From positions 2,387,392 to 2,451,391 of the forward strand of contig NZ_JACIET010000001.1 of assembly GCF_014197015.1 (NCBI RefSeq): a stretch of DNA of 64,000 nucleotides. The letters run 5' to 3'. The DNA is from Niveibacterium umoris (GTDB lineage Bacteria; Pseudomonadota; Gammaproteobacteria; Burkholderiales; Rhodocyclaceae). Position numbers and translations under genes: made by a program. Positions 16,510 through 58,782 of the stretch are shown one piece after another. The notes beneath the pieces were generated by a model. That model had not been told where the DNA came from and ran no database searches. It was given only the letters and a program-made list of their open reading frames with translations. The first letter of the stretch is position 1, and each line of letters opens with the position of its first letter.

Positions 16510-18153
16510 ATGGGTGTATCCCCGGAAGATCCCTCGTCTCGCCAACACACAGCACCTCGCCGGGTGCGCTGGTGGCGCTCGTCGGGTGTGCGGCTGACGC
16601 TGGCTTGCCTTGGAATCCTGCTGGCCTTCGCGACCGCACTGGCGGTCAACTCCACACGGCTGATCCAGGCAGCACTCGATCGCGACTTGCGCCAGCAAAC
16701 CGCGCAGATGTCACGCCTGATCAACCTGACCATCGCTCCCTACGCGGGCGAAGGCCGCCTCGACCTGCTGCAGGACTATTTGCGGGAGCTCCTCGCAGAA
16801 GGCGACGAGGGGGCGGGACTCACCTACCTTGTGGTGCTTGGCCCAAGCGGCGATCGCATCATTGGCGCAGGCAATACGCCGCCCGGCGCGCTACCGGAAG
16901 CATCGGGCGACGTGCGTCGCGCGGTCAAACTAGGGATCCTGCATGTCCGTCAGCCGCTGTTGCTGCCGGCGAACGAAATCGGGACATTGCAATACGGACT
17001 CAGCCTCGGCGGCTTCAGGCGCCTGGTTAACGGATTGCTGCATGACGGCGCCCTGATTCTTGCCATCAGCTTCCTCCTCGCGTCGGTTTTTTTCTGGCTC
17101 ACCGGTTTCCGGCTCTCACGCCGGCTTGGCAGCCTCGTGCGCGCCGCGCAAGGGATTGCTGATGGTCACTTCGAACGTCGAGTCGGCGTCCGCGGCCACG
17201 ATGAATACGCGGAACTTGCCGCCGCCTTCAACACGATGGCCACCGCAGTGGGCGACCGCATCACGGCGCTCGAGGCGTCACAGCGCGAAGTCCGCGAACT
17301 GAACGAGACCCTGGAACAACGCGTCGAGCGGCGCACACAAGAACTCGCCGAACGCAACAGCCTGCTGCAGGAAACCGTGGAAACGCTGAATCACACGCGC
17401 CAGCGACTGATCCGCACCGAGAAACTCGCCGGGCTAGGCAAGGTGGTCGTCGGCGTTGCCCACGAACTCAACACCCCTATCGGCAACGCCACGGTGATTG
17501 CGTCTGCGCTGGAAGACCGCACCGTGCGCCTGCGCAGCGGACTCGAGCACGGCATCAAACGCTCGCAACTCGCCGAATACCTGGACACCGCGGCGCAAAG
17601 CGCACGGCAACTGGTCGGGAACCTCGAGCGCGCGGCCAATCTCGTGGTGCGATTCCGTGACACCGCGGCAGACCGTCAGCAGGCGGAGCGTCGCAGCTTC
17701 GACGCAGAGGATTTGCTGCGGGATGTCGCGGTGCTGGCGCGAATCCGCGCAGAGCGGAATGACGTTCACACCGAGGTTCGCGCAGCCGGCCCGATCATCG
17801 TGGACAGTTATCCCGCGCTGTGGGAGAAGATGTTGCTGCACTGCCTTGCAAACTGCTACCAGCATGCATTCGCGCAAGACAGGCCCGGCACCATCCAGAT
17901 AAACGCGGATGCAGACGCACTCCGCCTGACAATCCAGATTCGCGACGACGGCGTCGGCATTTCGGAAGAAAACCTCGAACGCGTCTTCGATCCGTTCTTC
18001 ACCACCGCACTCGGACAAGGCGGCAGCGGCCTCGGCCTGCACGCGGTCTACAACATCGTAACTGGCGCGCTGGGCGGCGATATCGCCCTTGCCAGCGATC
18101 CGGGCAAGGGCACCTGCATCACGATCGAATTGCCCCGGGTCACGCCCGAGTAA
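16510..18153 (+). CDS. orphan membrane sensor histidine kinase
   Basis: This 547-residue kinase has TM1 at about 27-47, a periplasmic sensor of about 130 residues and TM2 at about 182-203. HAMP, a coiled coil (about 255-305), HisKA with GVAHELNTPIG (H318) and HATPase_c follow. The ATPase domain shows N-box LANCYQHAF, G1 DDGVGIS, F-box DPFFTT and G2 GSGLGLHAV. It should autophosphorylate H318 in response to an unknown periplasmic signal. No receiver protein is adjacent, so its partner is elsewhere. The H-box type (AHE-NTP-G) is the same as that of the LacI-fold kinase at 29221-31650, which is also an orphan. A 10-bp inverted repeat lies just before its ribosome binding site. Confidence 0.92.
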   Translation: MGVSPEDPSSRQHTAPRRVRWWRSSGVRLTLACLGILLAFATALAVNSTRLIQAALDRDLRQQTAQMSRLINLTIAPYAGEGRLDLLQDYLRELLAEGDEGAGLTYLVVLGPSGDRIIGAGNTPPGALPEASGDVRRAVKLGILHVRQPLLLPANEIGTLQYGLSLGGFRRLVNGLLHDGALILAISFLLASVFFWLTGFRLSRRLGSLVRAAQGIADGHFERRVGVRGHDEYAELAAAFNTMATAVGDRITALEASQREVRELNETLEQRVERRTQELAERNSLLQETVETLNHTRQRLIRTEKLAGLGKVVVGVAHELNTPIGNATVIASALEDRTVRLRSGLEHGIKRSQLAEYLDTAAQSARQLVGNLERAANLVVRFRDTAADRQQAERRSFDAEDLLRDVAVLARIRAERNDVHTEVRAAGPIIVDSYPALWEKMLLHCLANCYQHAFAQDRPGTIQINADADALRLTIQIRDDGVGISEENLERVFDPFFTTALGQGGSGLGLHAVYNIVTGALGGDIALASDPGKGTCITIELPRVTPE

Positions 18154-19089: not shown

Positions 19090-22000
19090 TCAAGCGCTCG
19101 CCGGAACGCCCTCAAAGAGCAACCCGCCGGGGATCGTGCACACCACGCTGGCCACCTCGCCCCGCCGCCAGAAGATGCTCTGGGATGCTTCGCGAGAAAG
19201 GGAGTCTCCCGCCATGCGCACCCGTGCTCCCGATGCTTCGACGACGGTGATCTCGACCGGGCCTGCGGATGGGGTGCCAAGGCGGAACACGAACGGCACC
19301 TGCGCAAGCGTGAACGCGAGTTCCCCAGCAGCGAGGGGCAGGTTCTGCTGGCAACCACGCACGTCGAGGTAACTGAAGCTGCGCTCTGTCGCGTTGAACT
19401 CCGCCGCCATCAGCAGTCGCGGAACGATTCTGATCTGCCCCTCGCGAACCAGCACACCCAGTTCGCCGAAACGCGCGATGACCTCCTCCTTGACTTGCCC
19501 GGTCATCCCCGGCTGTTGCGCGCCGCTATGCCCCGGCGTGTGCGAGTAAGGGTCGCACGGGAAGGCGCCGTATTCCGCCGGCGTCTTGTTGAACCCGAGT
19601 CCTTCACGAACACGGTAGTAGTGCTCGCCAAGGCGTCGGATGACGGCACCTGCCTCGCCGCGCTCGACCGCAGCGAAGAAGCATTCCTGCACGCCCAGCA
19701 GGAGCTTGGAGACCATGTGCCAGTAAATGCAGCCCAAGCCCTCGAAGCCGAACATGGTTCCGGAGCGCCCGGTGAAGCGGTGATGCTGGAATACCTCTTC
19801 ATACAGGGCGAGGGTCTGTGCATGCGTTTCGGGCGTGTATTCGCCATATTCCCGGCCACGCCGTTCAAGGACCGGGGCGAGCTCACCGGCATTGGCGAAC
19901 GTGGCCGCGAAACGGAACGCGCCGGTGCGATCCGGCTCGATGATCGAGACGTCCCCCCTGGCCGCCATTGCTCGCAACAGCGCGATCTGGGCGACCCGCG
20001 CAGCCGGCACCTGGTTCTTGGCCAGAAAACCGGGGAGTTGTCTGTCCGGGTAGAGCATGAAGCTCCGCTGATCTTCGCGATAGATTGCAGACGCGAACAG
20101 CACATCGAGCAGGTCCGCTGACTCGCTAGCCGTCAGCGCACCGGACGAGAGCACGGCAACCTGCCCCTCCAGCATCGGATAGAGGTGATCTACCCGAACA
20201 CCGTCCTGTCCGGAGATCATCAGGTTGTAGGCGTGGTACAGGCCATCGCCCTGCCGGTTCTGCGCAATCGAGCCGTCGAGTACCGGACATGCCGCCTTCA
20301 GGCTACGCAGAATGTCGGCGCCGGCCACCATGCGGAAGGCACCTGTCCGCGGCTGCGCATAGACCCGCTCGCGGTAGTGCGCGGCGGCACGACCAAGGGC
20401 CTCGAACAGGCGGGTGCGTCCGGCGTCGCCGCGCATACTGTCCGGCCCGAACTGCTCGAAGGCCGCACGTGTATCCCGCAGCCAATCCTCAAGTTCGGCG
20501 CTCAGCACGAAGGCGCCCGGTGTCGTCTCAAACAGGCGGATCAGGAAGTCGACATACCGCCGCGCGTGGTAGAGCGTGACCATCGACAGACCGGCGCCAA
20601 CCAGGGCGTTGTTGGCGTCGTTCCATTCGGGGCGCTGGGTGTTGAGCCAGATGCCGCCGCCCGGCACCAGATTGCCGAGTTTCGCGAGCAGTGGCACCAG
20701 GAGTTTCTCCGCCAGCGTGACCAGACGGACCTCGCCGCTCTCGTCCAGTACGAGCCGCCCGTCGCTCCCAAGCGCACTGCACCGTTGCGAAATCAGCGCC
20801 TCGTCAGCGGTGGAGAAACTCACCGTGTGCTTCGGGTCGGCCAGCAGCGCATCGAAACCGGCAATCCGGTAGGGCACGTTGGCATAACTGAAGACCGGGT
20901 CGGTCAGCAAGGCCCGCAGCGCCGCGGGGTCGTGGCGATCGCACAGTTCGAGCAAGCGCAGCAGGTAAATGAGCTGGTGATCGCCCCAGTACCCGATATT
21001 GGCCCACGGGTCTTCCGGATCCTCGACCTCCCAGTCAACGCCGTCTTCCGAGATCCGGTAGGGGTTGTAGCCGTCCAGGGTTGAGGCATTGACGAACTTG
21101 GCGATAACGCCGGTGACAAAGCCGGGAAAGGACAGCAGGAGCGCCTCCCAGTTCTGGAAGATGTCGCGCCAGTTGCCCTGGTAGGCGCGGCTCAGGCGAC
21201 CATCGGCATTGCGCCCACGAATGGTGAAGTGGTTCCACGGGCGGCTCGGATCCCCATGTCGCCGCCCGAAGACCAGTGGCAGATACTCCATCGCGAGACG
21301 GCGCAATTGCGGATCGCCACGCCCACCGATCGCTTGAGCCAGCTGCGGAAGCGTCATGCTCGCAGGCAGGGCGAGCATCCAGTCGGCGTGCCGCGCCCAG
21401 ACCACGCGATTGCGCAAACGCAGGTTTTGGAGGTAATCGTCGCGATCGATCCGGTAGTGGTCGTCGAACACGCCGCCGCGCATCACATTGAACAAGGTGT
21501 TCGCGACATGGTGGCAAGCGATCCGCTCGTCGGCGACCGCCTGGAAGGCGTCGGATGAAGCCAGAAGCCGACGTAGCGCCGCTTCATCGGCCTCTTGTGC
21601 GGCGTCAAGCTTGGCGGCGAGAGCGACCGGCGCATGCAAGGCGGCGCAGCGTTCGACGACCTCACGCTGGGTCAGCGGTGAATCAAGAACAATGCGCCAT
21701 TGCCGCGACGCATCCGCCGCCACCGTCAACCGGGTATGCAGCAGGAAGGCCCCAGCCACACCGCGGCGCAGCGGCACCGGCCCTTTGCTGGTCCGATTGC
21801 GCAGCGCATCGAAGTCGCTCGCGGCGAGGTAGATCGCGGCCCCTTCAAGACCCACCGCATATACAGCGGTGGCACGCAAGGATTCTGCCGGCTCGGCGCG
21901 ATCGCTGATGCGTGCGTACAAGGAATACGTCGCGAGGCCGCTCGGGTCGCGCTCGCTCCACTTGTAGGCGTCGATCAGGTTGCTCGCGCGGCTTTGCAGC

Positions 22001-22524
22001 GCACGCGGGGTATCCGCCGGCAGCAGGTTCAGTACACCATCGACCAGTTCCAGATCTACGGCCTGCCCAAGCGATGACAGGTCGGATTCGCGCACGATGC
22101 CGAACGCCCCGGCGCTGGTCCAGGTGTAGCTGAAGCGCAGGCCCAGGTCGTGGTTGGTCTCGCAGAACATGATGCGCATGCCCAGCTCGTCCTTGAGCAG
22201 GCTGCGCTCCAGACGGTAGCGCCCGCGCTGCTCGAGGTTGAATGGCTCCCACTCACGGGCTGCATCGCCTTCACCGACACGAATCCAGGTGCGGCTGCCG
22301 GTGTGCAGGCCGCTGCGGTGCAGGACATCGGAGGTGTTGTAGGGGAACAGCGCCTGCTCTGGGGCGCTGCGCCCGGCTGTGAGGCCGCCATGCGACGAGA
22401 TGAACAGCCACAGGTCGCTCGCCGACACCATGGTCATGAAGAAGGGCGGCATTTCGTCGTAGCCGCGAATTTCGTAGTAACGCCGACCGTTCAGGGTGAC
22501 AAAACTGCCGCTTGAGGTACTCAT
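19090..22524 (-). CDS. giant uncharacterised glycosidase/phosphorylase-like protein
   Basis: This 1144-residue protein has no signal peptide or membrane segment. The N-terminal part (FVTLNGRRYYEI, MPPFFMTMVSASDLWLFISS, GLTAGR) looks like the beta-sandwich of GH94/GH161-type enzymes. The central part (NWRDIFQNWEALLLSFP, LDGYNPYRI, GYWGDHQLIYLLRLLE, RPEWNDANNALVG) is helical and rich in aromatic/acidic pairs, as in (alpha/alpha)6 barrels. The motif P-x-W-N-D followed by N-x-L is shared with the giant protein at 43036-46410 (KPNWNDSINGLPG), and so is LDGYNP, so the two are distant relatives. ATG 22524 is preferred to GTG 22563. A LacI-type operator lies at 22607-22620, upstream of this gene. Catalytic residues and substrate cannot be assigned. 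Confidence 0.75.
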   Translation of the reverse strand: MSTSSGSFVTLNGRRYYEIRGYDEMPPFFMTMVSASDLWLFISSHGGLTAGRSAPEQALFPYNTSDVLHRSGLHTGSRTWIRVGEGDAAREWEPFNLEQRGRYRLERSLLKDELGMRIMFCETNHDLGLRFSYTWTSAGAFGIVRESDLSSLGQAVDLELVDGVLNLLPADTPRALQSRASNLIDAYKWSERDPSGLATYSLYARISDRAEPAESLRATAVYAVGLEGAAIYLAASDFDALRNRTSKGPVPLRRGVAGAFLLHTRLTVAADASRQWRIVLDSPLTQREVVERCAALHAPVALAAKLDAAQEADEAALRRLLASSDAFQAVADERIACHHVANTLFNVMRGGVFDDHYRIDRDDYLQNLRLRNRVVWARHADWMLALPASMTLPQLAQAIGGRGDPQLRRLAMEYLPLVFGRRHGDPSRPWNHFTIRGRNADGRLSRAYQGNWRDIFQNWEALLLSFPGFVTGVIAKFVNASTLDGYNPYRISEDGVDWEVEDPEDPWANIGYWGDHQLIYLLRLLELCDRHDPAALRALLTDPVFSYANVPYRIAGFDALLADPKHTVSFSTADEALISQRCSALGSDGRLVLDESGEVRLVTLAEKLLVPLLAKLGNLVPGGGIWLNTQRPEWNDANNALVGAGLSMVTLYHARRYVDFLIRLFETTPGAFVLSAELEDWLRDTRAAFEQFGPDSMRGDAGRTRLFEALGRAAAHYRERVYAQPRTGAFRMVAGADILRSLKAACPVLDGSIAQNRQGDGLYHAYNLMISGQDGVRVDHLYPMLEGQVAVLSSGALTASESADLLDVLFASAIYREDQRSFMLYPDRQLPGFLAKNQVPAARVAQIALLRAMAARGDVSIIEPDRTGAFRFAATFANAGELAPVLERRGREYGEYTPETHAQTLALYEEVFQHHRFTGRSGTMFGFEGLGCIYWHMVSKLLLGVQECFFAAVERGEAGAVIRRLGEHYYRVREGLGFNKTPAEYGAFPCDPYSHTPGHSGAQQPGMTGQVKEEVIARFGELGVLVREGQIRIVPRLLMAAEFNATERSFSYLDVRGCQQNLPLAAGELAFTLAQVPFVFRLGTPSAGPVEITVVEASGARVRMAGDSLSREASQSIFWRRGEVASVVCTIPGGLLFEGVPASA

Positions 22525-22606
22525 GTTTGCTCTGATTGCCAGAAATGAAGTCGCGAGCCACACAAGCGTTGGCCACCAGCAGCCCTCGCGAGGAAAAGCT
22601 CGAAAA

Positions 22607-26877: not shown

Positions 26878-29184
26878 GTGAATCGCTCACTGCGCAAACC
26901 CCGCATCGGGATATTGATCAACGAGATCGACGGTTTCTTCAATGTCCCGGTGATCGCCGGGTTTCGTGCCAAGGCGGAAGAGCACGGCCTCAAGCTCCTG
27001 TTCTTGCCCGTGCGAATCATCGATGCGGAATCCGCCTTCGAGCGCCAGTACAACCAGCTTCTGAACTTCGCCGATACCCCGCACATCGACGGTCTGGTGT
27101 CGGTCACATCGTCCTTCATGTCGGCAGGCAGCCATGACGCAACCCTCGCGGCGCTGGCGCGGTGTGCGCATATCCCGATGGTCAGCATCGGGTTGCGATT
27201 ACCTTGGGCGCCGACGATCGTGCCCGATAACGCTACCGGCTTCCGCGCGCTCATCAACCATCTGATAGCAGACCACGGCTACAACCGGATCGCGTTCATG
27301 CGGGGGCGAGAGAGCAACCCGGACGCCATCGCGCGATTTGAGGTATTCCAGGAATGCATGCACGCGGCAGGCTTGGCGATTGACGAGAGCCTCGTTGTCG
27401 ACGGGCAGTTCGATCACTACCACGGACGCATCGCAATGGAGACCCTGCTTGAGCGCCGCATCCCCTTCGATGCCCTGGTGGCGGCCAACGACGAAATGGC
27501 GCTTGCCTCCATGTCCGTGGCCGCAGAACGCGGCTTGCGCATCCCAGAAGACTTGGCCGTCGTCGGGTTTGACGACCTGCTCTCACTTCACCACAGCGGC
27601 CCGCCCTTGAGCACCGTGCGCCAGCCGATGCAGGAGCAGGCGGAACTGGCGATAGAGGTTCTGCTGGCCCGTCTGCGAGGCGAAACGGTGAGTGAAACCT
27701 ACACGGTTCCGACGCGCTTGGTTCTTCGCCAGACATGCGGCTGCCTTGGCGAGCGCAGCGCCCCGGCCGGAACATCGACCCTGGCGGTGTCGCGCGATGG
27801 CGAGACTGTCCCGATCGCCGACCTGTTGAACGCAGCCGCAGTGCAGGACGAACAACGATCGGCCTATCGCAACCACCTCGCCCGCCTGAACGCGACGCTC
27901 TTTGAAGACGACGCCAAAGCCTTCGAAGATTGCGTCAGTGAAGTCGCGGCGAACTGTCTGACGCAGTACGGCGATTTGAGCCCGTTGCAAGCGCTGCTGT
28001 TCGTGATGCACCGACGCCTGTTTGAGGAAGGCACGCTGTCGCGGCAGGAACTGCAACGCTTCGGGGAACGCCTGCAACACGGGCAGATACTGATTTCCAA
28101 TGCCTATGCGCTCGATCAGGTGCGGATCACCTTCGCCTCGAAATTCTCGGACACCCAGTTCATCGGCCAGTTGCGCGCGCGCGTATCCAGCTTTGAACTC
28201 GAACAAACGCTGAATCTGATTGAAGGTGCGATTGCGCGTCTGGGATTGCGCAGTTGCCATGTCGGCCTGTATGACTCGCCAGTGTCATTCGGAGATATCC
28301 GCCATAGCGAACCGCCCGCGAGTGCCCACCTGATCTTCTCGGTCGTGGATGGTGCCCGCCAGAACTCGGGCAGCGCCCCATCGTTCCCGGCTACACACCT
28401 GGTGCCGGGCGAGTTGTTTCACGGCAGCGATTTCGAGGTGATGGGCCTGTTTCCGGTGTGTCAGCTCAATCACCACTTCGGTTATCTAGCCTTGGACATC
28501 ACTTCGCCTCCGACCACACGGCTGGAGACCATCATTGAAGAGATATCCGCGACCTTGTGCGGTGCCTTGGTCGCAGCTGAGCTGGCGCGCGCGCGGGACC
28601 TGCTGCGCAACGATCTGGAAAACGCCTCGTTGAACAACAGGCGGCTCGCCGATCTTGCCGAACGCGACGAACTGACCGGGCTTTACAATCGCCGCGGTTT
28701 CTTCAACCAAGCCCGGTCCGTCATGACTTCAGACGAGGGGCGACCACTCATTGTCTTCTTCGCCGACCTCGACCGATTGAAGTACATCAACGACACCTTC
28801 GGCCACAAGGAAGGTGATTTCGCGATCCGCATGGCGGCACAGATTCTGGCCAAGGCATTTCGAACGGGCGACATCGTCAGCCGAATGGGCGGCGACGAGT
28901 TCGTCATCCTCGGGGTTGAGTGCCCGACGTTTGCAATGGAAAGAATCCGCAACCGCATCTACAAGATGTTCGACACCTTCAACGCATGCAGTGGCAAGCC
29001 CTATCCATTGGGATGCAGCATCGGTTTCTACGAAATACCCGAGAACGCGGCGACGCTGCTGGAAACCGTCATCAGCCAGGCCGACGCTTACCTCTACGAG
29101 GAAAAGGCTCGCCGCAAGGCGCTACGGGGCGCCGAAGCAGGCGAAACGCGCACGACAGATCGACGACACCCGCCGCACAGGTGA
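26878..29184 (+). CDS. cytosolic LacI-type sugar-binding domain fused to diguanylate cyclase
   Basis: The protein is 768 residues. Residues 8-280 are a periplasmic-binding-like fold of the LacI/GalR kind (PRIGILINEIDGFFNVPVIAGF, VPDNATGFRALINHL, FDALVAANDEMALASM, LAVVGFDDL, STVRQPMQEQAELAIEVLL). No helix-turn-helix precedes it and no signal peptide or TM segment is present. A C287-G-C289 motif ends this domain. About 300-590 is helical plus a probable GAF-like domain, followed by a coiled coil. The GGDEF domain carries intact GGDEF (671-675) and the I-site RTGD (662-665), so it should be an active, product-inhibited cyclase. GTG 26878 is preferred because the 35 residues encoded upstream are unconserved. 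It likely converts cytoplasmic sugar binding into c-di-GMP (inference). It is tail to tail with the kinase at 29221. Confidence 0.9.
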   Translation: MNRSLRKPRIGILINEIDGFFNVPVIAGFRAKAEEHGLKLLFLPVRIIDAESAFERQYNQLLNFADTPHIDGLVSVTSSFMSAGSHDATLAALARCAHIPMVSIGLRLPWAPTIVPDNATGFRALINHLIADHGYNRIAFMRGRESNPDAIARFEVFQECMHAAGLAIDESLVVDGQFDHYHGRIAMETLLERRIPFDALVAANDEMALASMSVAAERGLRIPEDLAVVGFDDLLSLHHSGPPLSTVRQPMQEQAELAIEVLLARLRGETVSETYTVPTRLVLRQTCGCLGERSAPAGTSTLAVSRDGETVPIADLLNAAAVQDEQRSAYRNHLARLNATLFEDDAKAFEDCVSEVAANCLTQYGDLSPLQALLFVMHRRLFEEGTLSRQELQRFGERLQHGQILISNAYALDQVRITFASKFSDTQFIGQLRARVSSFELEQTLNLIEGAIARLGLRSCHVGLYDSPVSFGDIRHSEPPASAHLIFSVVDGARQNSGSAPSFPATHLVPGELFHGSDFEVMGLFPVCQLNHHFGYLALDITSPPTTRLETIIEEISATLCGALVAAELARARDLLRNDLENASLNNRRLADLAERDELTGLYNRRGFFNQARSVMTSDEGRPLIVFFADLDRLKYINDTFGHKEGDFAIRMAAQILAKAFRTGDIVSRMGGDEFVILGVECPTFAMERIRNRIYKMFDTFNACSGKPYPLGCSIGFYEIPENAATLLETVISQADAYLYEEKARRKALRGAEAGETRTTDRRHPPHR

Positions 29185-29220: not shown

Positions 29221-31650
29221 TCAGCTGCACGAGCCGTGTTTGACCGGGAAGCGAATCTCGAATGCGGTGCCACCACCGGGGTTAGGGAGGCACTCGACGA
29301 TGCCACCCAAACCCTCGGCGACCAGATTGCTGACGATGGATAAGCCCAAGCCTACATTCCCCGTCATCCGCCGCGTCGTAAAGAACGGGTCGAATACCCG
29401 TCCGCGCATATCGGCCGAAATCCCGGCGCCATTGTCTGCAACCCGAATCCGTGCCGTCGACGCGCCGTCCAACAGCTCTGCCGAGATGACGATGCGCGGC
29501 TCGGTCTGCATGCCCGGCGGAAAGGCGTGATCCAGCGCGTTCTGAACAAGGTCGGTAACGATTTCCTGAACGACGGAAACGTGTGCGCGCATCCACATGG
29601 GACGTACCGCTTCGATCCTGGCGTGGATGAATCTGGCATCCAGTTCGACCTTGAAGAACTGCAGTACCGCAGCAAGTTCCCCCACCAGATCGAATTCAAC
29701 CCTTTGATCACCATACTGGGTAATGGACACCTTCTTGAAGGTCTCCACCAGTTTCGCGACGCGGTTCAGATTGCGATCAAGATGCTCAAGCGCCTCCTTG
29801 CTCGTCGAAAGGAAGTCCAGGACAGCTCTCCGCGTCAATTGACTTGTCTGGTATTTGTCTTCCAAGCCGAGCAGTTCCGAACGTAATACCGAAGCAACGG
29901 TCACGCTGACACCGAGCGGTGTGTTGATCTCGTGGGCGACCCCGCGGACCAGCGTGGCAATGGTGCGGGATCGCTCCGCCACGGCGGTTGTGCGACCCCA
30001 CTCGGCGAGATGCTTGCGGACAGCGCGACCAAGCTCACTCTCCCGCTCGCAAACCAAAGCAAGCGCGGCCTGCAATTGCACCAGCATGCCCTCCTGCCCG
30101 GGGTGCAACTCGATGGCCAACAGCCCATGCCAGGTAGAGCGGGACGCTACCGGCAAAACGAGCAATGTCGATTCTTCGAGTAAGTCAAACCATGCATCGG
30201 GTGCAATCAACGCGGCATCGAAGGGCGTGGGATCGACACCGGACGCCCTTTGTGGGTACATGGCCGCCGGCGCAAACTGCGTATCGGAGTTCACGCCACC
30301 CTCGATCCCCAAGGCGGCCTCGCTCACATCAATCTGCGAGAAACCCGCGTGGCCGGCCTGTGCAGCCAGCCCGACAAGGTTCGGGAACACGGACAGGCAA
30401 TACTTGCCGACTCCCAACGAAGGAAGATGCTTCGCCATGAATCCGGGCAGCGAAGACAGGCTTGACACTCGCAGCGCATCCAGCACTGCGGACCAATCCG
30501 ATCCGGGGTGCACCGGCGCAGCCCGATGCGGCGACTTCGATTCGCTGACCGTGCGGTAGAACAGTTCACTGCGTACCGCGTGCAGTTGCTCTGGACGCAA
30601 ACGCGCAAGCGAACCCATCTGGTCCCCAGCGTCGGCTTCCATTGCGGACCAGATGTCAAAAGCACGGTCCGCCGCATCCTCGCCCGAGCCGATGAGTTCG
30701 CTCACCGCATTGGCAAACGACTCGGGCTTGTTCGCCGCGTCAATCAAGCTGCTGCGCAAGGCCGGATCGACTGACCAGGATGTCCGACAGCAGCCGCACG
30801 AAGCGCGTATCTGCATCGTGCTCGGCAGCGTCGTCACAGGTGCCGGCTTGCCCCCCCGCCACATGTCTGCAAGCAGGTCAATTGCCGTCTCGGCTTGGGC
30901 ACGAATGGGCTGCAGGACGGAACTCAGCGGCGGATCGGCGTACCGGTTGCCCGGATCACCGTCGAAGCCGACCACGGCCACATCCTCCGGCACGCGAATG
31001 CCCGCCGCACCCAGTACAGCCACGATCTGGGTTGCCATCAAGTCGCTGGCGGCGACCACCGCGTCGAACTTACGCCCTGTCCGCCAAGCCTCCACCAGAT
31101 GATGCGGCTCATGAACCGAAACGAAGTTCCCGGCGAGCACCAGTTCCGGGTCAGGCTCGATGCCGTGAGCACGCAGGGTCTGTAGCCAGGCTGCATATCG
31201 GATCGAACCGTCTTCGGAATTGGATGGACCGCAGATGAACGCCTGGCGGCGATGACCGTGATGAAGGATGAGATGCTCGACCAACTCTCGCATTCCGGTC
31301 GCATTGTCCACAAGCACCGACGGCACCCCAGGGAGCGTTTCCGCGATCGACACCATGGGGATCCGGCCAAAGTCTCGCGGGTGCTCAGAGAAGGCGTGGC
31401 CGCCATTGAAGTACTTGAGGCCCGGGTTGAGCACCAAGCCGTCGATACGGCGCTCGTCGATCAGGCGAAAAAGCGCGGACTGCACCCTTACAGAAACATA
31501 ATCACTAACGTCTTGCGGGCCGGTGAATACCATCAGATCGAAGCCCCGGCGTCGGCAGTGCGCAACTGCACAGCGCCAGAGGCGGTTCGTATAGTGGCCT
31601 TCCCAACCGAGATGATTGATGAGAAAACCAATGCGCTTGCGTCCAGCCAT
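29221..31650 (-). CDS. cytosolic LacI-type sugar-binding domain fused to histidine kinase
   Basis: The protein is 809 residues. Residues 4-285 form a LacI/GalR-like binding fold (KRIGFLINHLGWEGHYTNRLW, VDNATGMRELVEHLILHHGH, FDAVVAASDLMATQIV, VAVVGFDGDP, SSVLQPIRAQAETAIDLL) ending in a Cys-Gly-Cys-Cys motif. A helical segment, a probable GAF-like domain and a coiled coil follow. The kinase has HisKA with GVAHEINTPLG (H573) and HATPase_c with an N-box-like LVQNALDHAF, DNGAGIS, DPFFTT and GLGLSIVSNL. There is no helix-turn-helix, signal peptide or TM segment. ATG 31650 gives MAGRKRIGF, directly at the first beta strand; the frame is open to 31758. No response regulator is nearby. It should sense a cytoplasmic sugar and signal by phosphotransfer (inference). 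Confidence 0.9.
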   Translation of the reverse strand: MAGRKRIGFLINHLGWEGHYTNRLWRCAVAHCRRRGFDLMVFTGPQDVSDYVSVRVQSALFRLIDERRIDGLVLNPGLKYFNGGHAFSEHPRDFGRIPMVSIAETLPGVPSVLVDNATGMRELVEHLILHHGHRRQAFICGPSNSEDGSIRYAAWLQTLRAHGIEPDPELVLAGNFVSVHEPHHLVEAWRTGRKFDAVVAASDLMATQIVAVLGAAGIRVPEDVAVVGFDGDPGNRYADPPLSSVLQPIRAQAETAIDLLADMWRGGKPAPVTTLPSTMQIRASCGCCRTSWSVDPALRSSLIDAANKPESFANAVSELIGSGEDAADRAFDIWSAMEADAGDQMGSLARLRPEQLHAVRSELFYRTVSESKSPHRAAPVHPGSDWSAVLDALRVSSLSSLPGFMAKHLPSLGVGKYCLSVFPNLVGLAAQAGHAGFSQIDVSEAALGIEGGVNSDTQFAPAAMYPQRASGVDPTPFDAALIAPDAWFDLLEESTLLVLPVASRSTWHGLLAIELHPGQEGMLVQLQAALALVCERESELGRAVRKHLAEWGRTTAVAERSRTIATLVRGVAHEINTPLGVSVTVASVLRSELLGLEDKYQTSQLTRRAVLDFLSTSKEALEHLDRNLNRVAKLVETFKKVSITQYGDQRVEFDLVGELAAVLQFFKVELDARFIHARIEAVRPMWMRAHVSVVQEIVTDLVQNALDHAFPPGMQTEPRIVISAELLDGASTARIRVADNGAGISADMRGRVFDPFFTTRRMTGNVGLGLSIVSNLVAEGLGGIVECLPNPGGGTAFEIRFPVKHGSCS

Positions 31651-32040
31651 TTCTTGCCCCACTACAAACCACGCTGATTCAAACTGCGCGCGGGTCGTGC
31701 CGGCCGATTCCAGCCCACACGCTTGCCTAGCATCAGCGGCGAAACATCCCCAGGGCATCAGCCAGATGGCGATTTGCGCGTACGAGGCGCATCAGCCGCA
31801 ACGTTCCTTGGTCGCAAACCAACGCACACATGCGCGCGTAGGCCATGCGCTCAAGCAAATGCGCGTAACGCAAAAGCGCCATTCACGGCAAACCGCATGG
31901 CACGCCAAAGCGTTCGGGGTAGAGCCGTTCCGTCCGGATTGCCGGCCCGGCCTGCTGCACCCCTCTCATGCCCCGAAGGAAATGAGCCACCCGCCATGCA
32001 TGCAAAGCGCACATTGACGGGTGGCTACCAACTGCTCAGA
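31651..32040. other. intergenic region upstream of LacI-fold kinase
   Basis: 390 bases with no convincing gene. It carries the stem-loop 31985-32026 near the end of the next minus-strand gene. The promoter of the kinase must lie in this interval, but no clear -35/-10 pair was picked out. Confidence 0.4.
31985..32026 (-). terminator. stem-loop after glucan-binding lipoprotein gene
   Basis: AGCCACCCG (31985-31993) and CGGGTGGCT (32018-32026) are perfect 9-bp arms around 24 bases, starting 14 bases past the stop at 32041 on the minus strand. The following minus-strand sequence has only a weak T-rich stretch. Confidence 0.45.
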
Positions 32041-36910: not shown

Positions 36911-37933
36911 CTATCTTAGACGACGCGTACTGTCCCGAATGACCAGCTCGAGCGGCCGCACAGCGACCCCCTCGCGCGCAGTTTCCCCGACGAGTTCGAT
37001 CATGTCGACCGCCGCCGCGCGCCCCAATTCGTAGACCGGCTGGCGAATCGTCGTCAGCCGCGGCTCTTTCGCCACGACATCAACGGCGTCATCAAACCCG
37101 ACCAGCGAAATGTCGTCAGGCACACGAATGCCGTAACGCTGAAGGGCGATACGCGCGCCCCAGGCGGAAAGATCGTTGCCCGCGAACACGGCGGTGAACG
37201 CGGCTGCGCGTTCGAGCAGGGCGTGCATCGCCGCAAGCCCCCCGCCTTTGAGGAAGCCGCCCTGCACCACCAGGTTCGGATCGAAACGCAGACCGGCCTC
37301 TTCGAGCGCCACCCGGTAGCCGGCGAGCCGCTCCCGCGCGTCCCACTGATCGGGCGGCCCGGCGATGTGCGCGATGCGCCGGTGCCCCAGCGACAACAGA
37401 TGATTCACAGCGAGTCGTGCACCGCCAAGGTTGTCCACGCATCGCGACCGCACCCGCTCGCCGCACAGCATGCGCCCGGTCAGCACGATGGGCAGGTGCG
37501 CGGAGAGGCGCAGCAGCTGTGCGTCATCCATCATCGAACCGAGCAGTATCACGCCGTCGGCGCGCCTCGCCGCGAGCTGAAGAACCTGTTCCGCTTCCTG
37601 ACGCGCCGACCACTCGCCGCTGATGCGCAGCGCCGTGTAGCCATGCGCCGCAAGCGCGTCGGCAATACCTGCGGTGAGCGTGCTGCAATAGCTGCTCTCA
37701 CTCAACTCGGTCAGCACGCCGATGGTCTTCGCTGCGCAAATGCCGGGCGCGCCTTCGCTGGCGGTCGACTCGGCCGAGAGCAACTCACCCGCCTCGCGCA
37801 CCGCGCGCCTGCGTTCAGCATCATTGCTGCCCGACGCACTGAGCACGCGGGCAACCGTGCCGACCGGCACCCCGGTGCGCGCTGCGATCTCCGCAACGCT
37901 TGCGCCGCGAGGTGCCTTGCCCGCGCTGCTCAT
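36911..37933 (-). CDS. LacI family transcriptional regulator, last gene of glucanase operon
   Basis: This 340-residue protein has an N-terminal LacI HTH (ASVAEIAARTGVPVGTVARVLSASGSNDAERRRAV), in which the recognition helix is recognisable but the usual Ser-Arg of TVSR is Ala-Arg. The effector fold begins AKTIGVLTEL and contains SLGHRRIAHIAGP, FTAVFAGNDLSAWGARIAL, ISLVGFDDAVDVVAKEPRLTTIRQPVYELG. Its start overlaps the GH16 stop as ATGA (37930-37933), so it is co-translated with the GH81/GH16 genes and probably feeds back on them. It is a paralogue of the LacI protein at 46748. Which of the two binds TGAAAGCGCTTTCA cannot be told from sequence. Confidence 0.93.
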   Translation of the reverse strand: MSSAGKAPRGASVAEIAARTGVPVGTVARVLSASGSNDAERRRAVREAGELLSAESTASEGAPGICAAKTIGVLTELSESSYCSTLTAGIADALAAHGYTALRISGEWSARQEAEQVLQLAARRADGVILLGSMMDDAQLLRLSAHLPIVLTGRMLCGERVRSRCVDNLGGARLAVNHLLSLGHRRIAHIAGPPDQWDARERLAGYRVALEEAGLRFDPNLVVQGGFLKGGGLAAMHALLERAAAFTAVFAGNDLSAWGARIALQRYGIRVPDDISLVGFDDAVDVVAKEPRLTTIRQPVYELGRAAAVDMIELVGETAREGVAVRPLELVIRDSTRRLR

Positions 37934-43035: not shown

Positions 43036-46000
43036 TTATTGTTCAGAACGCGGTGCGGCCGCTCCAGGGTCTTGTCCAAGCATCACCGTCAGCCGTTCGA
43101 TTGCGCCGTCGCGCAGGGCCTGCGCATGGGGCGCCGGGAGTTCGCACCCCGGCACCACGTGCCGGGTGCCATCGTTGTAGTGGAGCCGATAGCCCAGCAC
43201 CCGTGCGCCCGCCTCGCCCCAGGTATCCAGTCGCTGCGGGTTTTCCAGCACGAGCAGGCAATCACCCAGAATGCTGAAGGCAACCGAACCCGCCGGCAGC
43301 GTCGCCTCGCGCGCCACCTCGTGGCCGCGCTGCCCGGTTGCAAGGATGCCACTTGCGCTGGTGCGCCGCACATGCTGCGCACCCACGGTGAACAAACTTC
43401 CGGGCAAGGCGGGGCGTGCAACGAAGCTGAGCGTGCCGTCGGCGCCTTGCCGGAATGGCCGCTCGCCGAGCATAGCCAGCAGCAGGATGTTGTAGAACTC
43501 GCTGGTGCTGCCCGACAGGCGCGCCGAAAAACCATTGCCATGCAGGCGCGCATCGGGGTTCGCGCTGGTGACGAGGAAGGACACGTTCTCGAAGATCGAG
43601 CGTCCGTACTGCGCCGGGTCGCGCCATGCCACCAGCCCCGTCCACGCGGCTTGCCAGAACGCGTCATAAAGGCCGGCGCGCAGCAACTCGAGCAGGTACT
43701 TGTAGGCCATGTGCAGGAAGATCGACTCGTTCTCCAGCCAACCCGGCGTAAAGGCCTGCAGGCGGCCGATTTCCAGCGGCATGCGTCGCGTCGCCCCGCT
43801 GACCTTGTACATCCCCAGCGGCACGTCGTAGAGCTCGGAGGCACGTACACCGGCGGCGATGCGCGCCGCCTGGGCCGGATCGGTCGCCAGTCGCAAGGCA
43901 TGCACGCTGCCTTCGATGAACGGCGCCACCGGGATCGCCTCGAAGCGGAACGCACGGCAGGTCTGCAGCTGCCTGCCATGCAGCTCGCGTGTCGCGGCCA
44001 GCGGCAGGTACTCCGCCAGCTCGAACATCCAGTACGTCGTGCAGATGCCGCGTCGGTGATCGAAGGCGCGTTCAATACCGGCGCTCAGCAGCGCGTCCGC
44101 CTCGGCGAGCCAGCCTGACAGTTCTGCCAGGGGCCAACCGCGTTCGTGGCCCGACAGATCCTGCAGCAGCTTCGCCCGGTAGGCTTCGCGGGCGTCGGAC
44201 GCCTGCGACCAATAGTCGAAGGCTTCGATGGCGCCGGAAACCCGCTGCGCCACCAGCCCGCGGATCTGGTCGAACAGGCTCGCAGCCTCCTCCGGCAGCG
44301 TCACGATGGCGCCTTGCAGGGCGTAATCCTCGGCCCAGCGACGGATCAGCCGCACCAGGCGCAGCAATTCCTGGCTCTCGTTGATGGACGAACCGAAAAG
44401 GCCCGGCAGTCCGTTGATCGAATCGTTCCAGTTCGGCTTGTCGGCCTCCATCTCGATGCCCATGCCGGCGGGGTCGAGCGTGGACAACTTGACGGTCGCG
44501 AGCAGCACCAGCTTCGAGAGCAGGCTGGAACGGTATATGGCGCCGTCTTGCGTGCGGGCCTTGTCGGCCTCGCGTTCGCGCAGCGCGATCCGCGCCGCCT
44601 TGGCTTCGTCGAGGGCTACCGCTTCGTACTGACGCGGCCCGTTATCGGTGAGCACGTATTTCTGCGCACGCGGCAACACCCCCACCGCATTGTCGAAGTA
44701 GCTGAAACGCCGCGCATCGGTCAGCAGCGCCGCCATGCGATCCGGGAACAGCCCTTCATAGCTCTCGATCAGGTCGAGGTTGTAGAACCAGTGGTCGGTC
44801 CAGAAGCCTTCGCCGTGTTCGGCATCTTCGAGCTTGCGGCTCGCCAGCACCAAGGCGGAGACGAGATCGAAGAGCGACCCGCACAACGCGGACTCATGCG
44901 CTTGCGCCCAGCGGATGACCGTATCCGGGATCCACGGCTCGGCGAGCGCAGCAAGCAAGCTCTCGTGCAGGCGATGCGGGACCAGGCGCGCGAGCACCGG
45001 CATCGCAGCGGACGCGTCGAGCTGGTAGCGCACGCCTTTCACCACCTGTGGGTTGTAGCCGTCGAGCTGGATCAGGTTGATGAAGTATTCGATGTTGGCA
45101 CTGCCGACATCCGGGTTGAACCACACGTCGTTACGACGATTCTGGTTAACGTCGCGGTAGGCGCCATTCCCCTGCGAGAAGTAGGTCGGCGAGAGGCGGA
45201 ACTGGTTGTAGTCACGCTCGGTGTCGCCATGACGACGCGAAAACAGGTACATCACATCGCGTCGCTCGCCATCGCTGATCGACAACGGGAAGCCGCCGCG
45301 CAACAGGTTGTCGAGGAAGTTCTGGCCCGCGTACGCGTTGAGGCGCGCATCCTCGGTGACGAGAAAGCAGCGATCCATCAACGCCCGCACCAGTTGCTCG
45401 TTCTCGTCCGCCTTGGCGGCGAAGAAGGCCGGCGTGGCGTACTGCGGCAGGCGCGCGTTCCACTCGGCCAAGCTATCGACCTTGCCGTACAAGGCTTGTA
45501 CGGTCACCGATTCGCCCGCTGCCAGCGTGACGCTGGCGTGCGTGAGCGCACTCGGCGTGCGGTTGCCGGATTGCTGTTCGGCGCACCATTCGAAATAGCC
45601 GTCAACGAAGAGCTCGGGGAAATCGAAGTCGGTGATGCGCCCGAACACCTCTTGCGGATCGATGACCGGGTCGAGCAGGCGGCTGGCGCCACCCTGCGTC
45701 AGGATCGCGAAGAACGCATGCCCCTTCTCGATAGGCTTCACTTCTGCCGTATCGGCAAAGGTGACCTTCAAGCGCGAATAGGGCGCACGGTTTTCAAGGT
45801 TGTCGACGGTGTACCAGGCCTCGATCGTGCGCGACATGTTCTTCATCGCCCAGTCGTTGAGGCCGTAGGGCATGAATTGCGGCAGACCGTCGATGAGTTG
45901 CAGCGTGACCGGCTCGGCCGCGGTGTTGGTGATCAACACTTCACGTGCCAGCGCTGCAATCGGTTCGTTCGGGATCGTGAAATAGCGAACCTGGAAACGC

Positions 46001-46410
46001 AGCCCCAGCGCGGAATCATGCTCTTCCAGGTGCAGGTCCCAGGGGCTGATGCTCAGATGGCGCGCCGGCTCGGCGGAACGCGACGAAAGCGAATCGCGGA
46101 ACGCTTCTGCATAGCCGCTGCGCGCCCCGCGCGTCCAGTGAATGAAGGTGCGAAAGCCGGTACTTGCGGTGAGGCGATAGGCCTTGTTCGCAGGCTGGAA
46201 CTCGACAATCGCGCCGTCCTTGTCCTGCAAGCCGAAGCTGCTGACTGCCTGTCCGCGATTCACATAGAACGCCCACAGCGGTACGCCCATCACCCCGGCG
46301 ATGCCAGGAAAGAAGCTGGCAAAGGGCTTTGCACGGTGATAGCCATCAATGCGGAAACGCAACGGGTCCGCGGGATCTACCCGATAGACCGGTTCAAAAC
46401 TGGATTTCAT
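43036..46410 (-). CDS. giant GH94-related protein, candidate beta-1,3-oligoglucan phosphorylase
   Basis: This 1124-residue protein has no signal peptide, hence is cytoplasmic. The N-terminal beta-sandwich shows GIAGVMGVPLWAFYVNRGQAVSSFG and EFQPANKAYRLTASTGFRTFIHW. The (alpha/alpha)6 region has FNPDVGSANIEYFINLIQLDGYNP, WTDHWFYNLDLIESY and EMEADKPNWNDSINGLPG. GIAG...WAFYVNRGQ with this length fits the GH94-like clan of long beta-1,3-glucan phosphorylases (GH149/GH161), and the surrounding laminarin-type genes agree. The family assignment rests on memory of motifs and context and needs a profile search. ATG 46410 is chosen; the 47 residues encoded upstream look unconserved. An operator (46557-46570) precedes it, and a LacI gene is divergent. 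If it is a phosphorylase it would yield glucose 1-phosphate from imported oligosaccharides. Confidence 0.7.
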   Translation of the reverse strand: MKSSFEPVYRVDPADPLRFRIDGYHRAKPFASFFPGIAGVMGVPLWAFYVNRGQAVSSFGLQDKDGAIVEFQPANKAYRLTASTGFRTFIHWTRGARSGYAEAFRDSLSSRSAEPARHLSISPWDLHLEEHDSALGLRFQVRYFTIPNEPIAALAREVLITNTAAEPVTLQLIDGLPQFMPYGLNDWAMKNMSRTIEAWYTVDNLENRAPYSRLKVTFADTAEVKPIEKGHAFFAILTQGGASRLLDPVIDPQEVFGRITDFDFPELFVDGYFEWCAEQQSGNRTPSALTHASVTLAAGESVTVQALYGKVDSLAEWNARLPQYATPAFFAAKADENEQLVRALMDRCFLVTEDARLNAYAGQNFLDNLLRGGFPLSISDGERRDVMYLFSRRHGDTERDYNQFRLSPTYFSQGNGAYRDVNQNRRNDVWFNPDVGSANIEYFINLIQLDGYNPQVVKGVRYQLDASAAMPVLARLVPHRLHESLLAALAEPWIPDTVIRWAQAHESALCGSLFDLVSALVLASRKLEDAEHGEGFWTDHWFYNLDLIESYEGLFPDRMAALLTDARRFSYFDNAVGVLPRAQKYVLTDNGPRQYEAVALDEAKAARIALREREADKARTQDGAIYRSSLLSKLVLLATVKLSTLDPAGMGIEMEADKPNWNDSINGLPGLFGSSINESQELLRLVRLIRRWAEDYALQGAIVTLPEEAASLFDQIRGLVAQRVSGAIEAFDYWSQASDAREAYRAKLLQDLSGHERGWPLAELSGWLAEADALLSAGIERAFDHRRGICTTYWMFELAEYLPLAATRELHGRQLQTCRAFRFEAIPVAPFIEGSVHALRLATDPAQAARIAAGVRASELYDVPLGMYKVSGATRRMPLEIGRLQAFTPGWLENESIFLHMAYKYLLELLRAGLYDAFWQAAWTGLVAWRDPAQYGRSIFENVSFLVTSANPDARLHGNGFSARLSGSTSEFYNILLLAMLGERPFRQGADGTLSFVARPALPGSLFTVGAQHVRRTSASGILATGQRGHEVAREATLPAGSVAFSILGDCLLVLENPQRLDTWGEAGARVLGYRLHYNDGTRHVVPGCELPAPHAQALRDGAIERLTVMLGQDPGAAAPRSEQ

Positions 46411-46747
46411 CAAGGCACCAGTAAGAGTGAGATGCACCGCTTCGGCCGCGTCGCGAACCGATACGGATTGGGGGGAGTCGGCCCGCGCCGCCTGCGAGCA
46501 GCGAGGGATTCCGATTTGAAATGCTTGCTTTGGATTGTTTGGAGGGAACAAAATGCTGAAAGCGCTTTCCTGGCAGCACCTGCGCGCTTAGCGGCCGCTT
46601 GGCCGGCTTTTCGACGGCGGGTGTCACGCCCTTTGTGGCGGAACTGTCACGCCAGGAGCGCGGCATTGCGAGCAGGCGATGGCCCTGCAATGCGCAACCC
46701 TGACGGTCCGGAACCACGAATCGAACACAGCACTTCCCCCCTTCGAC
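46411..46747. other. divergent control region, giant GH94-related gene / LacI
   Basis: 337 bases with no gene. It carries one operator (46557-46570). The arrangement is the classic local-regulator layout, so both divergent promoters may respond to it. Confidence 0.6.
46557..46570. promoter_or_regulatory. LacI-type operator (TGAAAGCGCTTTCC)
   Basis: 13 of 14 positions match the consensus. It lies 146 bases upstream of the giant GH94-related gene (start 46410) and 177 bases upstream of the divergent LacI start (46748). Confidence 0.75.
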
Positions 46748-47782
46748 ATGACGTCCGAACACACCAAGAAAACTGATCTGCCCGAGAACATCACGCTCGA
46801 AATGGTGGCGCGCACAGCAGGCGTATCGCCGGCAACCGTGTCGCGCATCCTCAACGGTTCGGCACGTGTCAGCGACAAGAAGCGCGCCGCGGTCGCCGCC
46901 GTGATCAAGCAGCTCAACTACCGCCCGAACGCCCTGGCGCGCGGGCTGGCACAAGGTCGCACCAACAGCATTGGCGTGCTCACGCAGGACATCGCTTCGC
47001 CCTTCTACGGTGAAGCGCTGCGGGGTATTGAAGATGCGCTCAAGGACACCGGCGCCATTCCGCTGATCGTCAGCGGCCACTGGATCCTGCGCGACGAGGT
47101 CGAGCGCCTTGAGCATCTGCTCTCGCGCCGGGTCGATGGCCTGATCGTGCTGACTGGCAGTCTGCCCGACGACGAACTCATCCGTTACGCGGGCGAGGTG
47201 CCGCTGGTGGTGACCGGCCGCGATCTCGAAGCGGACAACCTCACCAGCCTGCGCTTTGATGACTACGCCGGCGCCCGCATCGCAACCGAGCATCTGATCG
47301 ACCTGGGGCACCGACGCATCGCGCATGTCGCAGGCCCGCTGGATCATTTCGACTCGCTCGAGCGCCTGCGCGGCTATCGCGAAGCGCTCATCGACGCGGG
47401 TATCGCGTTCGACGATGATCTGGTCGTACACGCCGACTTCCATGAACCCGGCGGCCTGCTCGCAATCAACCAACTGATCGCGGCGCGCACCCCCTTCACG
47501 GCGGTGTTCGCCGCCAACGATCAATCGGCGTTCGGCGCACGACTCGCGCTGCACACGCACGGCATCCGGGTGCCGGAGGACATCTCGATCGTCGGCTTCG
47601 ACGACTTGCCCGTCTCCAACTATGTCGTGCCCCCGCTGACAACCGTGAAGCAACCGGCCTACGAGATGGGCGAGATCGCCGCGCGCGCGCTGGTCAGCAT
47701 GATCCACGGCGAACCCAAACTCGGGCAGCTGCCGCGACCCGAACTTGTCGTCCGGGCCTCCTCCCGCCCGCTTCGCCGTTAG
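46748..47782 (+). CDS. LacI family transcriptional regulator
   Basis: This 344-residue protein has a well-conserved HTH (ITLEMVARTAGVSPATVSRILNGSARVSDKKRAAV, then NYRPNALARGLAQGRTNSIGVL with the hinge helix). An intact effector domain follows (DIASPFYGEALRGIEDAL, DLGHRRIAHVAGP, FTAVFAANDQSAFGARLAL, ISIVGFDDLPVSNYVVPPLTTVKQPAYEMG). The hinge NALARGL is of the type that inserts into a central CpG, which suits the CG centre of TGAAAGCGCTTTCA. It is therefore the favoured regulator of the seven operators in the window (inference). ATG 46748 is preferred to 46679. It is divergent from the giant GH94-related gene, with an operator between. Confidence 0.93.
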   Translation: MTSEHTKKTDLPENITLEMVARTAGVSPATVSRILNGSARVSDKKRAAVAAVIKQLNYRPNALARGLAQGRTNSIGVLTQDIASPFYGEALRGIEDALKDTGAIPLIVSGHWILRDEVERLEHLLSRRVDGLIVLTGSLPDDELIRYAGEVPLVVTGRDLEADNLTSLRFDDYAGARIATEHLIDLGHRRIAHVAGPLDHFDSLERLRGYREALIDAGIAFDDDLVVHADFHEPGGLLAINQLIAARTPFTAVFAANDQSAFGARLALHTHGIRVPEDISIVGFDDLPVSNYVVPPLTTVKQPAYEMGEIAARALVSMIHGEPKLGQLPRPELVVRASSRPLRR

Positions 47783-57888: not shown

Positions 57889-58782
57889 TTACTCCCTGCC
57901 CAAAGCGCGGGCAGCCGCTGAAGCTGCCGCCGTTCGGGTCTCCACCCCTAGCTTTTCGAAGATGTGTTCAAGATGCTTGTTCACGGTGCGGGGGCTCATC
58001 CCAAGAATTTCGCCGATATCGCGATTGGTCTTGCCGCGCGCTACCCACAGCAGCACTTCGCTCTCCCGCGCAGTCAGCTCGGCAGCGGCACGCTTGCTCG
58101 AGCCCGTGCCCGCGGCGGTGAGCGTGAAGACCGTGATGGCCTGTGCCGACTCGCTCACGCGCCGCGCTTGCAGGGCGCCATTTAAAAGCGAAAGCGACGT
58201 GCTGGTCTGCTCGCCCAGCCCAGTCAGGAGCCCCGCCAGATGAGGCGGCATTCTGAGCCCTTCGTTGAGGTTCAAGCCCGGCTCCAGCGCGCTGAGCAGC
58301 TGCCGCGCAGCGTCGTTGCACCACAGAAGTTGCGAGGTTTCGTCCACCGCCAGCATGGCATTGCTGCTGGCGTTCACCGCCTCGCGCGTGGCGCGCACCA
58401 GGCGCGCGGTGCGGGTGTGGGCCTGCAGCCGCGCGATCACTTCGGGCGGCGACACCGGCTTGGTGACGTAATCATTACCGCCCACCGCAAAGCCCCGCAC
58501 GATGTGTTCGGTCTCGCCCAGGCCAGTCATGAAGATCACCGGAACGTCTTCGCTCTGATCGCGAATCCGCTCGCAGGTTTCAAAGCCATCCATGCCGGGC
58601 ATCTGCACGTCGAGCAGAATCGCTCCCGGAAGGTGTTTGGCCAGGTATGCAAGCGCTAGCTCCCCGCTGGCGGCAGTGTGCACCTGAAGGCCAACGGCCC
58701 CCAGTTCAAGAGACAGCAGTGCCAACGCATCAGCGCTGTCATCGACAAGCAGTACGTCACAGGCTTCTTCAACTGAATGCAT
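57889..58782 (-). CDS. response regulator, receiver-PAS-LuxR HTH
   Basis: The protein is 297 residues. The receiver (about 8-125) has acidic pocket VDD (13-15), phospho-acceptor D58 in LLDVQMPGMDG and the conserved Lys in VTKPVSPP. A PAS-like segment follows (about 140-220, with NAMLAVDETSQLLWCNDAA), then a LuxR HTH (LTARESEVLLWVARGKTNRDIGEILGMSPRTVNKHLEHIFEKLGV). ATG 58782 overlaps the end of the transporter-kinase gene by 14 bases, so the two are translated together and form a two-component pair. The divergent urtA operon is the obvious target, but this is inferred from position. Confidence 0.92.
   Translation of the reverse strand: MHSVEEACDVLLVDDSADALALLSLELGAVGLQVHTAASGELALAYLAKHLPGAILLDVQMPGMDGFETCERIRDQSEDVPVIFMTGLGETEHIVRGFAVGGNDYVTKPVSPPEVIARLQAHTRTARLVRATREAVNASSNAMLAVDETSQLLWCNDAARQLLSALEPGLNLNEGLRMPPHLAGLLTGLGEQTSTSLSLLNGALQARRVSESAQAITVFTLTAAGTGSSKRAAAELTARESEVLLWVARGKTNRDIGEILGMSPRTVNKHLEHIFEKLGVETRTAAASAAARALGRE

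Follow-up and report, generated by a model that had tools for sequence, protein, structure and literature searches.

A predicted soluble histidine kinase with a LacI-type sensor core and its convergent LacI-GGDEF twin in Niveibacterium umoris

Introduction

Bacteria usually read internal sugars by means of repressors and external sugars by means of kinases, the latter detecting sugars or other signals by periplasmic sensor domains or by periplasmic binding proteins that are separate from the kinase, as in LuxPQ and the Bacteroides hybrid two-component systems. A gene of Niveibacterium umoris, here called LacI-HK, departs from this scheme and raises the question of what such a kinase would sense and to which regulator it would report. 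With a LacI core on a kinase, a metabolite inside the cell could exert its effect by way of phosphorylation. The gene lies in a stretch of 64,000 nucleotides (the window; positions 2,387,392 to 2,451,391 of contig NZ_JACIET010000001.1), and an earlier note made from the sequence had described its product as a LacI-type sugar-binding domain fused to a soluble histidine kinase with no partner regulator. Our analysis confirmed this observation as a whole and partly supported its interpretation.

Results

Domain layout of LacI-HK. The features of the window on which the following sections draw are listed here by coordinates and strand.

29221..31650, minus strand: LacI-HK gene, 809 aa, with a start kept in relatives
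30796..31650, minus strand: LacI-type periplasmic-binding-protein-like core, residues 1-285, without helix-turn-helix (Pfam, AF2, Foldseek)
30790..30798, minus strand: Cys-Gly-Cys (CGC) motif, residues 285-287, seen in all 24 output-fused proteins that were compiled
30034..30789, minus strand: LacI-HK middle region, residues 288-539, helical and then alpha/beta (alignments A1 and A4)
29737..29955, minus strand: DHp (HisKA) segment, residues 566-638 (Pfam, motifs, AF2)
29239..29571, minus strand: HATPase_c domain, residues 694-804, with N, G1, F, and G2 boxes (Pfam, motifs)
26878..29184, plus strand: convergent twin, a fusion of a CGC-bearing LacI-type sensor to GGDEF (Pfam; start by inspection)
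19090-22563 and 34048-56809: beta-1,3-glucan locus (GH149, GH17-like, GH16, GH81, GH1, ABC transporter parts)

The enclosing open reading frame extends from 29221 to 31758 on the minus strand, and all three relatives keep the start at 31650 (MAGRKRIGFL...). Pfam assigned Peripla_BP_3 to residues 125 to 285 (1.3e-28), Peripla_BP_1 (2.3e-9), and HATPase_c to residues 694 to 804 (1.5e-20, above the cut-off). HisKA was matched at 1.7e-4; its score of 22.0 bits falls short of the curated cut-off (26.9). The kinase motifs were all present: H573-E-I-N-T-P, the N box at 703, G1 (DNGAGI) at 739, FDPFFTT at 753, and G2 at 767. The phospho-acceptor H573 is encoded at 29932-29934, and a long helix predicted by AF2 from residue 540 on leads into the DHp segment. 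With a phospho-acceptor histidine in DHp and complete N, G1, F, and G2 boxes, the protein can be classed by its motifs as a HisKA sensor kinase whose catalytic motifs, as judged from the sequence, are intact. This bears out the HisKA (H573) plus HATPase assignment of the earlier note.

Pfam gave no match for the LacI helix-turn-helix (PF00356) in either LacI-HK or its twin and none for GGDEF in LacI-HK. A hydropathy scan for membrane segments found none in LacI-HK; the highest 19-residue value was 1.72 and lay within the binding-protein core, while a membrane kinase of a relative reached 2.6 by the same script. The protein had been called soluble on the understanding that a transmembrane segment would speak against it, and the scan agrees with that description. 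Indeed, Pfam, the kinase motifs, and the fold comparison below all agree on a LacI-type sensor covalently fused to a histidine kinase. A scan for promoters and terminators gave no clear excess over shuffled sequences (1 versus 0.8 and 4 versus 3.4).

Fold of the sensor core and of the middle region. We built an AF2 model of LacI-HK from 12 aligned sequences (mean pLDDT, 64.8). In blocks of ten residues, the pLDDT ranged from 82 to 97 between residues 101 and 280, with one block at 65; it was lower and patchy before residue 101 and fell below 50 over residues 320 to 570. When the model was compared to the PDB with Foldseek, the top matches were LacI-ancestor structures (E 2e-21; TM by target, 0.83), the RbsR-ribose and CelR-cellobiose structures reached 0.82 and 0.69, respectively, and LacI-type regulators made up 50 of the 50 matches listed. 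Sequence comparison with the PDB also paired the core with LacI-type regulators. The N-terminal core, as modeled, has the LacI fold, in agreement with what had been proposed from the sequence.

The LacI ancestor (9nt3) and 5ysz, whose structure title names a CelR-cellobiose complex, both have the same residues as LacI-HK at R151, D203, D230, and Q247; we take these four positions to be ligand-binding ones in LacI regulators. Together with CGC they are invariant across the 11 rows of alignment A1, which holds both histidine kinase and GGDEF members. The motif had been given as Cys-Gly-Cys-Cys: Cys-Gly-Cys is conserved, whereas the next residue, a cysteine in LacI-HK, varies among relatives. As for the sugar ligand named in the earlier note, the LacI-type pocket is there, but the sugar itself had been deduced from that pocket rather than demonstrated.

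The middle region is common, at low identity, to GGDEF- and MCP-fused relatives (alignments A1 and A4). Pfam found GAF in one of 11 sensor members (2.1e-4), a protein other than LacI-HK, hhalign of the middle region against two GAF sequences gave a probability of 1.1, and AF2 modeled the middle region of the twin at a pLDDT of 44. The label GAF-like, and the fold of this region altogether, are thus unproven.

A convergent LacI-GGDEF twin adjoins the kinase gene. That the locus lacks a partner regulator gene was noted correctly, but the convergent twin next to LacI-HK had been overlooked. The twin frame is open from 26773 and, by inspection, probably starts with the GTG at 26878; GGDEF was matched by Pfam at 1.6e-33. 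The two convergent, neighboring reading frames end 36 bp apart, and their sensors share 27% identity.

Full-length LacI-HK occurs in four of the seven genomes of the genus, namely, our own, G120 (66% identity), G207 (64%), and G184 (62%), and the convergent twin adjoins it in all four. The twin relatives in G120, G184, and G207 are 72 to 74% identical, over 252 residues only in G207, whose contig holds just the C-terminal part. The pairing of LacI-HK with its twin is therefore conserved. LacI-HK is open and co-linear in our genome, G120, and G184, and the catalytic motifs are kept in the latter two; the G207 copy (loci L015 and L100), from a fragmented metagenome assembly, is interrupted by an in-frame stop. 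LacI-HK is thus a real gene, conserved in one genus and uninterrupted in three of the four genomes that have it, and it combines well-known parts in a new way.

A second LacI-GGDEF paralogue is L008 (G000:C1:2515383). The response regulator gene next to it appears LytTR-like on inspection.

LacI-HK is rare in the sets searched. Full-length LacI-HK was found in four of 297 family genomes. In a phylum sample of 398 genomes, with two candidates scored in each, the sole full-length match was our own genome. When the sensor alone was searched in an order sample of 399 genomes (three candidates scored in each), no outside match extended past query residue 353; the matches were mostly of LacI-regulator length, with a few longer frames. 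Somewhere in the protein, 3,653 of 72,556 plasmid records matched, none with one place covering at least 80% of it, and viral contigs yielded no relative of LacI-HK. A species-wide contig scan by two narrow peptide patterns, with which distant fusions may be missed and in a set from which our own genome is perhaps absent, gave four confirmed loci, two of them full length (L100 and L101, the former apparently the G207 contig). In the sets searched, which for whole genomes covered our own phylum, LacI-HK appears by sequence to be confined to one genus. Among titles and abstract openings of the literature on LacI-type sensors with kinases, cyclases, or chemoreceptors, we found no study of a LacI-histidine kinase fusion.

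The sensor is a cassette with several outputs. A sensor profile search of 395 family genomes (three candidates scored per genome) gave matches at 1e-40 in 17, some of them frames of LacI-regulator length. In another genus of the family, g11, the sensor is fused to an MCP signaling domain, as Pfam confirmed in the three proteins scanned (L111, L115, and L116) and as was recognized by eye in L112 and L114; in L113, the core and the MCP part are apparently in different frames. The first five of these are apparently soluble LacI-type chemoreceptors. Two more genomes of the same class carry the sensor with GGDEF, by motif (L134 and L135).

The 24 output-fused proteins with CGC comprise 4 kinases, 15 GGDEF proteins (including L110, whose GGDEF match is degenerate), and 5 MCP proteins. 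Among short proteins of LacI-regulator length, CGC was seen only in L145 and L148, both of which end in it, and this weakens the idea that CGC is a hallmark of fusions only. Judging by these sequences, the sensor behaves as a swappable cassette, with relatives carrying GGDEF, kinase, or chemoreceptor outputs; the order in which the outputs arose is not resolved by the sensor tree. The twin kinase and cyclase genes and this three-output cassette are more striking than the missing neighbor regulator.

LacI-HK is an orphan, as are most kinases of its class in our genome. A genome-wide search for receivers gave 88 matches at E 0.001, 87 of them above the cut-off, and no receiver gene within 25 kb of LacI-HK. 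The earlier note had stated this distance, and the claim is narrowly true, because the nearest receiver gene, a REC-LuxR gene at 57889-58827 on the minus strand, is 26.2 kb away. No regulator gene adjoins LacI-HK in our genome as it would in a classical two-component pair.

We use HE-NTP, a label coined here, for kinases with HE[ILV]NTP at the phospho-acceptor. By exact DNA pattern, our genome has 18 of them, including LacI-HK, and a receiver starts within 5 kb of the H box in only four (a fifth at 5,032 bp), so in this class orphan kinases predominate in our genome. The inference of an orphan kinase thus stands as regards the lack of a nearby regulator, but not as something special.

Some other genes were seen along the way. 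At 16510-18153 on the plus strand, a HAMP histidine kinase of the HE-NTP class lies beside a DsbC-like gene with no receiver within 30 kb. The REC-LuxR gene is next to a hybrid histidine kinase gene (58769-62392), and the same cluster (57889-63666) includes a Peripla_BP_5 binding protein. At G000:C2:1593964 and C2:1595346, another HE-NTP kinase and a weak match to Peripla_BP_3 are about 1.4 kb apart.

DUF3369 regulators as candidate partners. The best other kinase match in our genome was a GAF-HK (E 8.5e-44; 3 of 68 candidates scored); its gene and a DUF3369-HD-GYP gene overlap by 4 bp. For the receiver of this DUF3369-HD-GYP protein, Pfam gave 26.8 bits (cut-off, 30.2), and at 1e-5 no receiver was reported either here or in the G120 counterpart; we identify it as a receiver by this low-scoring match and by aspartates seen on inspection. 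GAF-HK lies between the DUF3369-HD-GYP gene and an ATPase-like gene in G000 and G072 (L046 and L165), the neighbor genes of this locus having been recognized by eye. In G120 and G184 (L163 and L164), it is absent from the same gene order, and the DUF3369-HD-GYP gene stays.

A 45-row kinase tree joined GAF-HK to LacI-HK with a support of 98/83. Of the 17 other HE-NTP kinases in our genome, it held 16 (the one in L083 was left out), together with 4 LacI-HK, 2 PAS-HK, and 23 family loci (from the 26 of L017 to L042). In a 46-row tree, from which the long rows L087, L088, and L091 of our genome were removed and to which the G072 GAF-HK and three more distant kinases (L169 to L171) were added, the split with LacI-HK and the two GAF kinases received 91/84. 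The kinase branch of LacI-HK is very long (2.5 to 2.7 changes per site), and the join carries a long-branch warning and may be false for this reason.

Gene neighborhoods in relatives lead to the same regulator family. In G120 and G184, LacI-HK lies 0.8 and 3.4 kb, respectively, downstream of a PAS-HK gene on the same strand. Beyond PAS-HK, again on the strand of LacI-HK, G120 has a REC-DUF3369-GGDEF-EAL gene (Pfam) and G184 has DUF3369 in an 860-residue frame, of which only the DUF3369 part was searched. The equivalent PAS-HK and REC-DUF3369-GGDEF-EAL genes of our genome are at C1:152.8-159.2 kb, more than 2 Mb along the contig. Since LacI-HK is near a DUF3369 gene in G120 and G184, its orphan state is partly particular to our genome.

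REC, DUF3369, and HD-GYP together form a described c-di-GMP arrangement (PMC9756655 and PMC4212101). The apparent kinship with GAF-HK and the DUF3369 neighbors in relatives make a c-di-GMP regulator the leading candidate; the best candidate partner for LacI-HK would thus be a DUF3369 regulator with c-di-GMP domains. Our genome encodes three DUF3369 proteins. Because 13 other HE-NTP kinases have no receiver within 5 kb, many kinase-regulator pairings are conceivable.

The beta-1,3-glucan locus. In our genome, the pair is flanked on one side by a GH149 beta-1,3-glucan phosphorylase gene and on the other by GH17-like, GH16, GH81, GH1, and sugar-transport genes. GH149 occurs in all four genomes with LacI-HK and in one of the three without it. 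The idea that the locus fixes the ligand is weakened by G120, where the locus is contiguous, contains neither LacI-HK nor the twin, and lies 2.6 Mb from the pair. Because of this separation, a beta-glucan-derived sugar is only hinted at as the ligand.

The locus has a LacI regulator of its own, with a LacI helix-turn-helix, at 46679-47782 on the plus strand. A second LacI-type regulator of the locus, at 36911-37933 on the minus strand, is matched by LacI-regulator models along almost its whole length, with the Pfam helix-turn-helix below the cut-off. A distant second GH149-like reading frame was also seen in the locus, at 43036-46551.

Discussion

We propose that LacI-HK senses a small cytoplasmic molecule, most likely a sugar or oligosaccharide, by binding it in the LacI-type core. 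As the core opens and closes, the movement would be relayed via the CGC junction, the middle region, and the long helix to the DHp helices, changing how autophosphorylation at H573 and phosphatase action are balanced. The phosphate acceptor would be the product of a gene at another site, most probably a DUF3369 protein with a c-di-GMP output (HD-GYP or GGDEF-EAL), and the twin would make c-di-GMP directly. Because the twin uses the same type of sensor, the two genes could be two arms of one nutrient-to-c-di-GMP circuit. To this model as a whole, a soluble sensor kinase that links a cytoplasmic ligand to a DUF3369 c-di-GMP regulator and is paired with a cyclase twin, we give a probability of about 0.5. 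LacI-HK thus probably reports an internal sugar-like molecule to c-di-GMP signaling; we infer the ligand class, the signal path, the c-di-GMP output, and the partner regulator, including the DUF3369 link itself. More tentatively, and with some doubt, one cytosolic LacI-CGC cassette may have moved between cyclase, kinase, and chemoreceptor outputs within the family Rhodocyclaceae, and the kinase and cyclase of the genus may form a fixed pair in which one internal ligand drives c-di-GMP synthesis via LacI-GGDEF and turnover via LacI-HK and a shared DUF3369 regulator.

A soluble LacI-type kinase could also feed an ordinary distant transcriptional regulator of carbohydrate genes, for example, those of the surrounding beta-1,3-glucan locus. 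The position of the gene between GH149 and the GH17/GH16/GH81 genes, the co-occurrence with GH149, and the 88 receiver matches, with one REC-LuxR gene in the window, would all suit such a role. We nevertheless hold it to be rather unlikely, as the pair lies outside the glucan locus in G120, the locus has LacI-type regulators of its own, and the nearest relatives of the kinase point to DUF3369 regulators.

Two further explanations concern the protein itself. If the LacI core were a ligand-free part for dimerization or scaffolding (for instance, between LacI-HK and the twin) and the signal were sensed by the middle region or by CGC redox, one would readily understand why CGC is present in every output-fused protein, why the middle region is common to different outputs, and why the twins are neighbors in all four genomes. 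Conservation of R151, D203, D230, and Q247 in all aligned histidine kinase and GGDEF members and the confident model of residues 101 to 280, bar one block, make this improbable. Decay into a nonfunctional fusion, to which the in-frame stop in G207 and the long kinase branch might point, is very improbable given the open, co-linear genes of our genome, G120, and G184 with their catalytic motifs kept. We thus favor a ligand-responsive kinase that acts on c-di-GMP.

LacI-HK can be compared with four known groups of proteins. It has the ligand-binding core of LacI/GalR factors (LacI, PurR, RbsR, and CelR); these bind DNA, whereas LacI-HK has no helix-turn-helix and its output is a kinase. LuxPQ and the Bacteroides hybrid systems likewise tie a binding-protein-like fold to a kinase, but in LacI-HK the fold is LacI-type and covalently attached, with no membrane segment by hydropathy. 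The DHp and ATPase module is that of HE-[ILV]-NTP HisKA kinases, some of which are encoded beside DUF3369 regulators; in place of a GAF or PAS sensor, LacI-HK has a LacI-type sensor, and it has no adjoining regulator gene in our genome. Finally, LacI-type c-di-GMP enzymes have the same sensor core with a GGDEF instead of a kinase output; the twin is one of them and shares CGC and the middle region with LacI-HK. A Periplas_BP/LacI-like domain is indeed named among putative sensory domains of c-di-GMP enzymes in a review (PMC8846402).

With the matched LacI-GGDEF gene, a link between nutrient state and c-di-GMP can be tested directly in a single small gene pair, and the chemoreceptors that carry the same cassette allow the coupling of one sensor to different outputs to be studied in a natural series.
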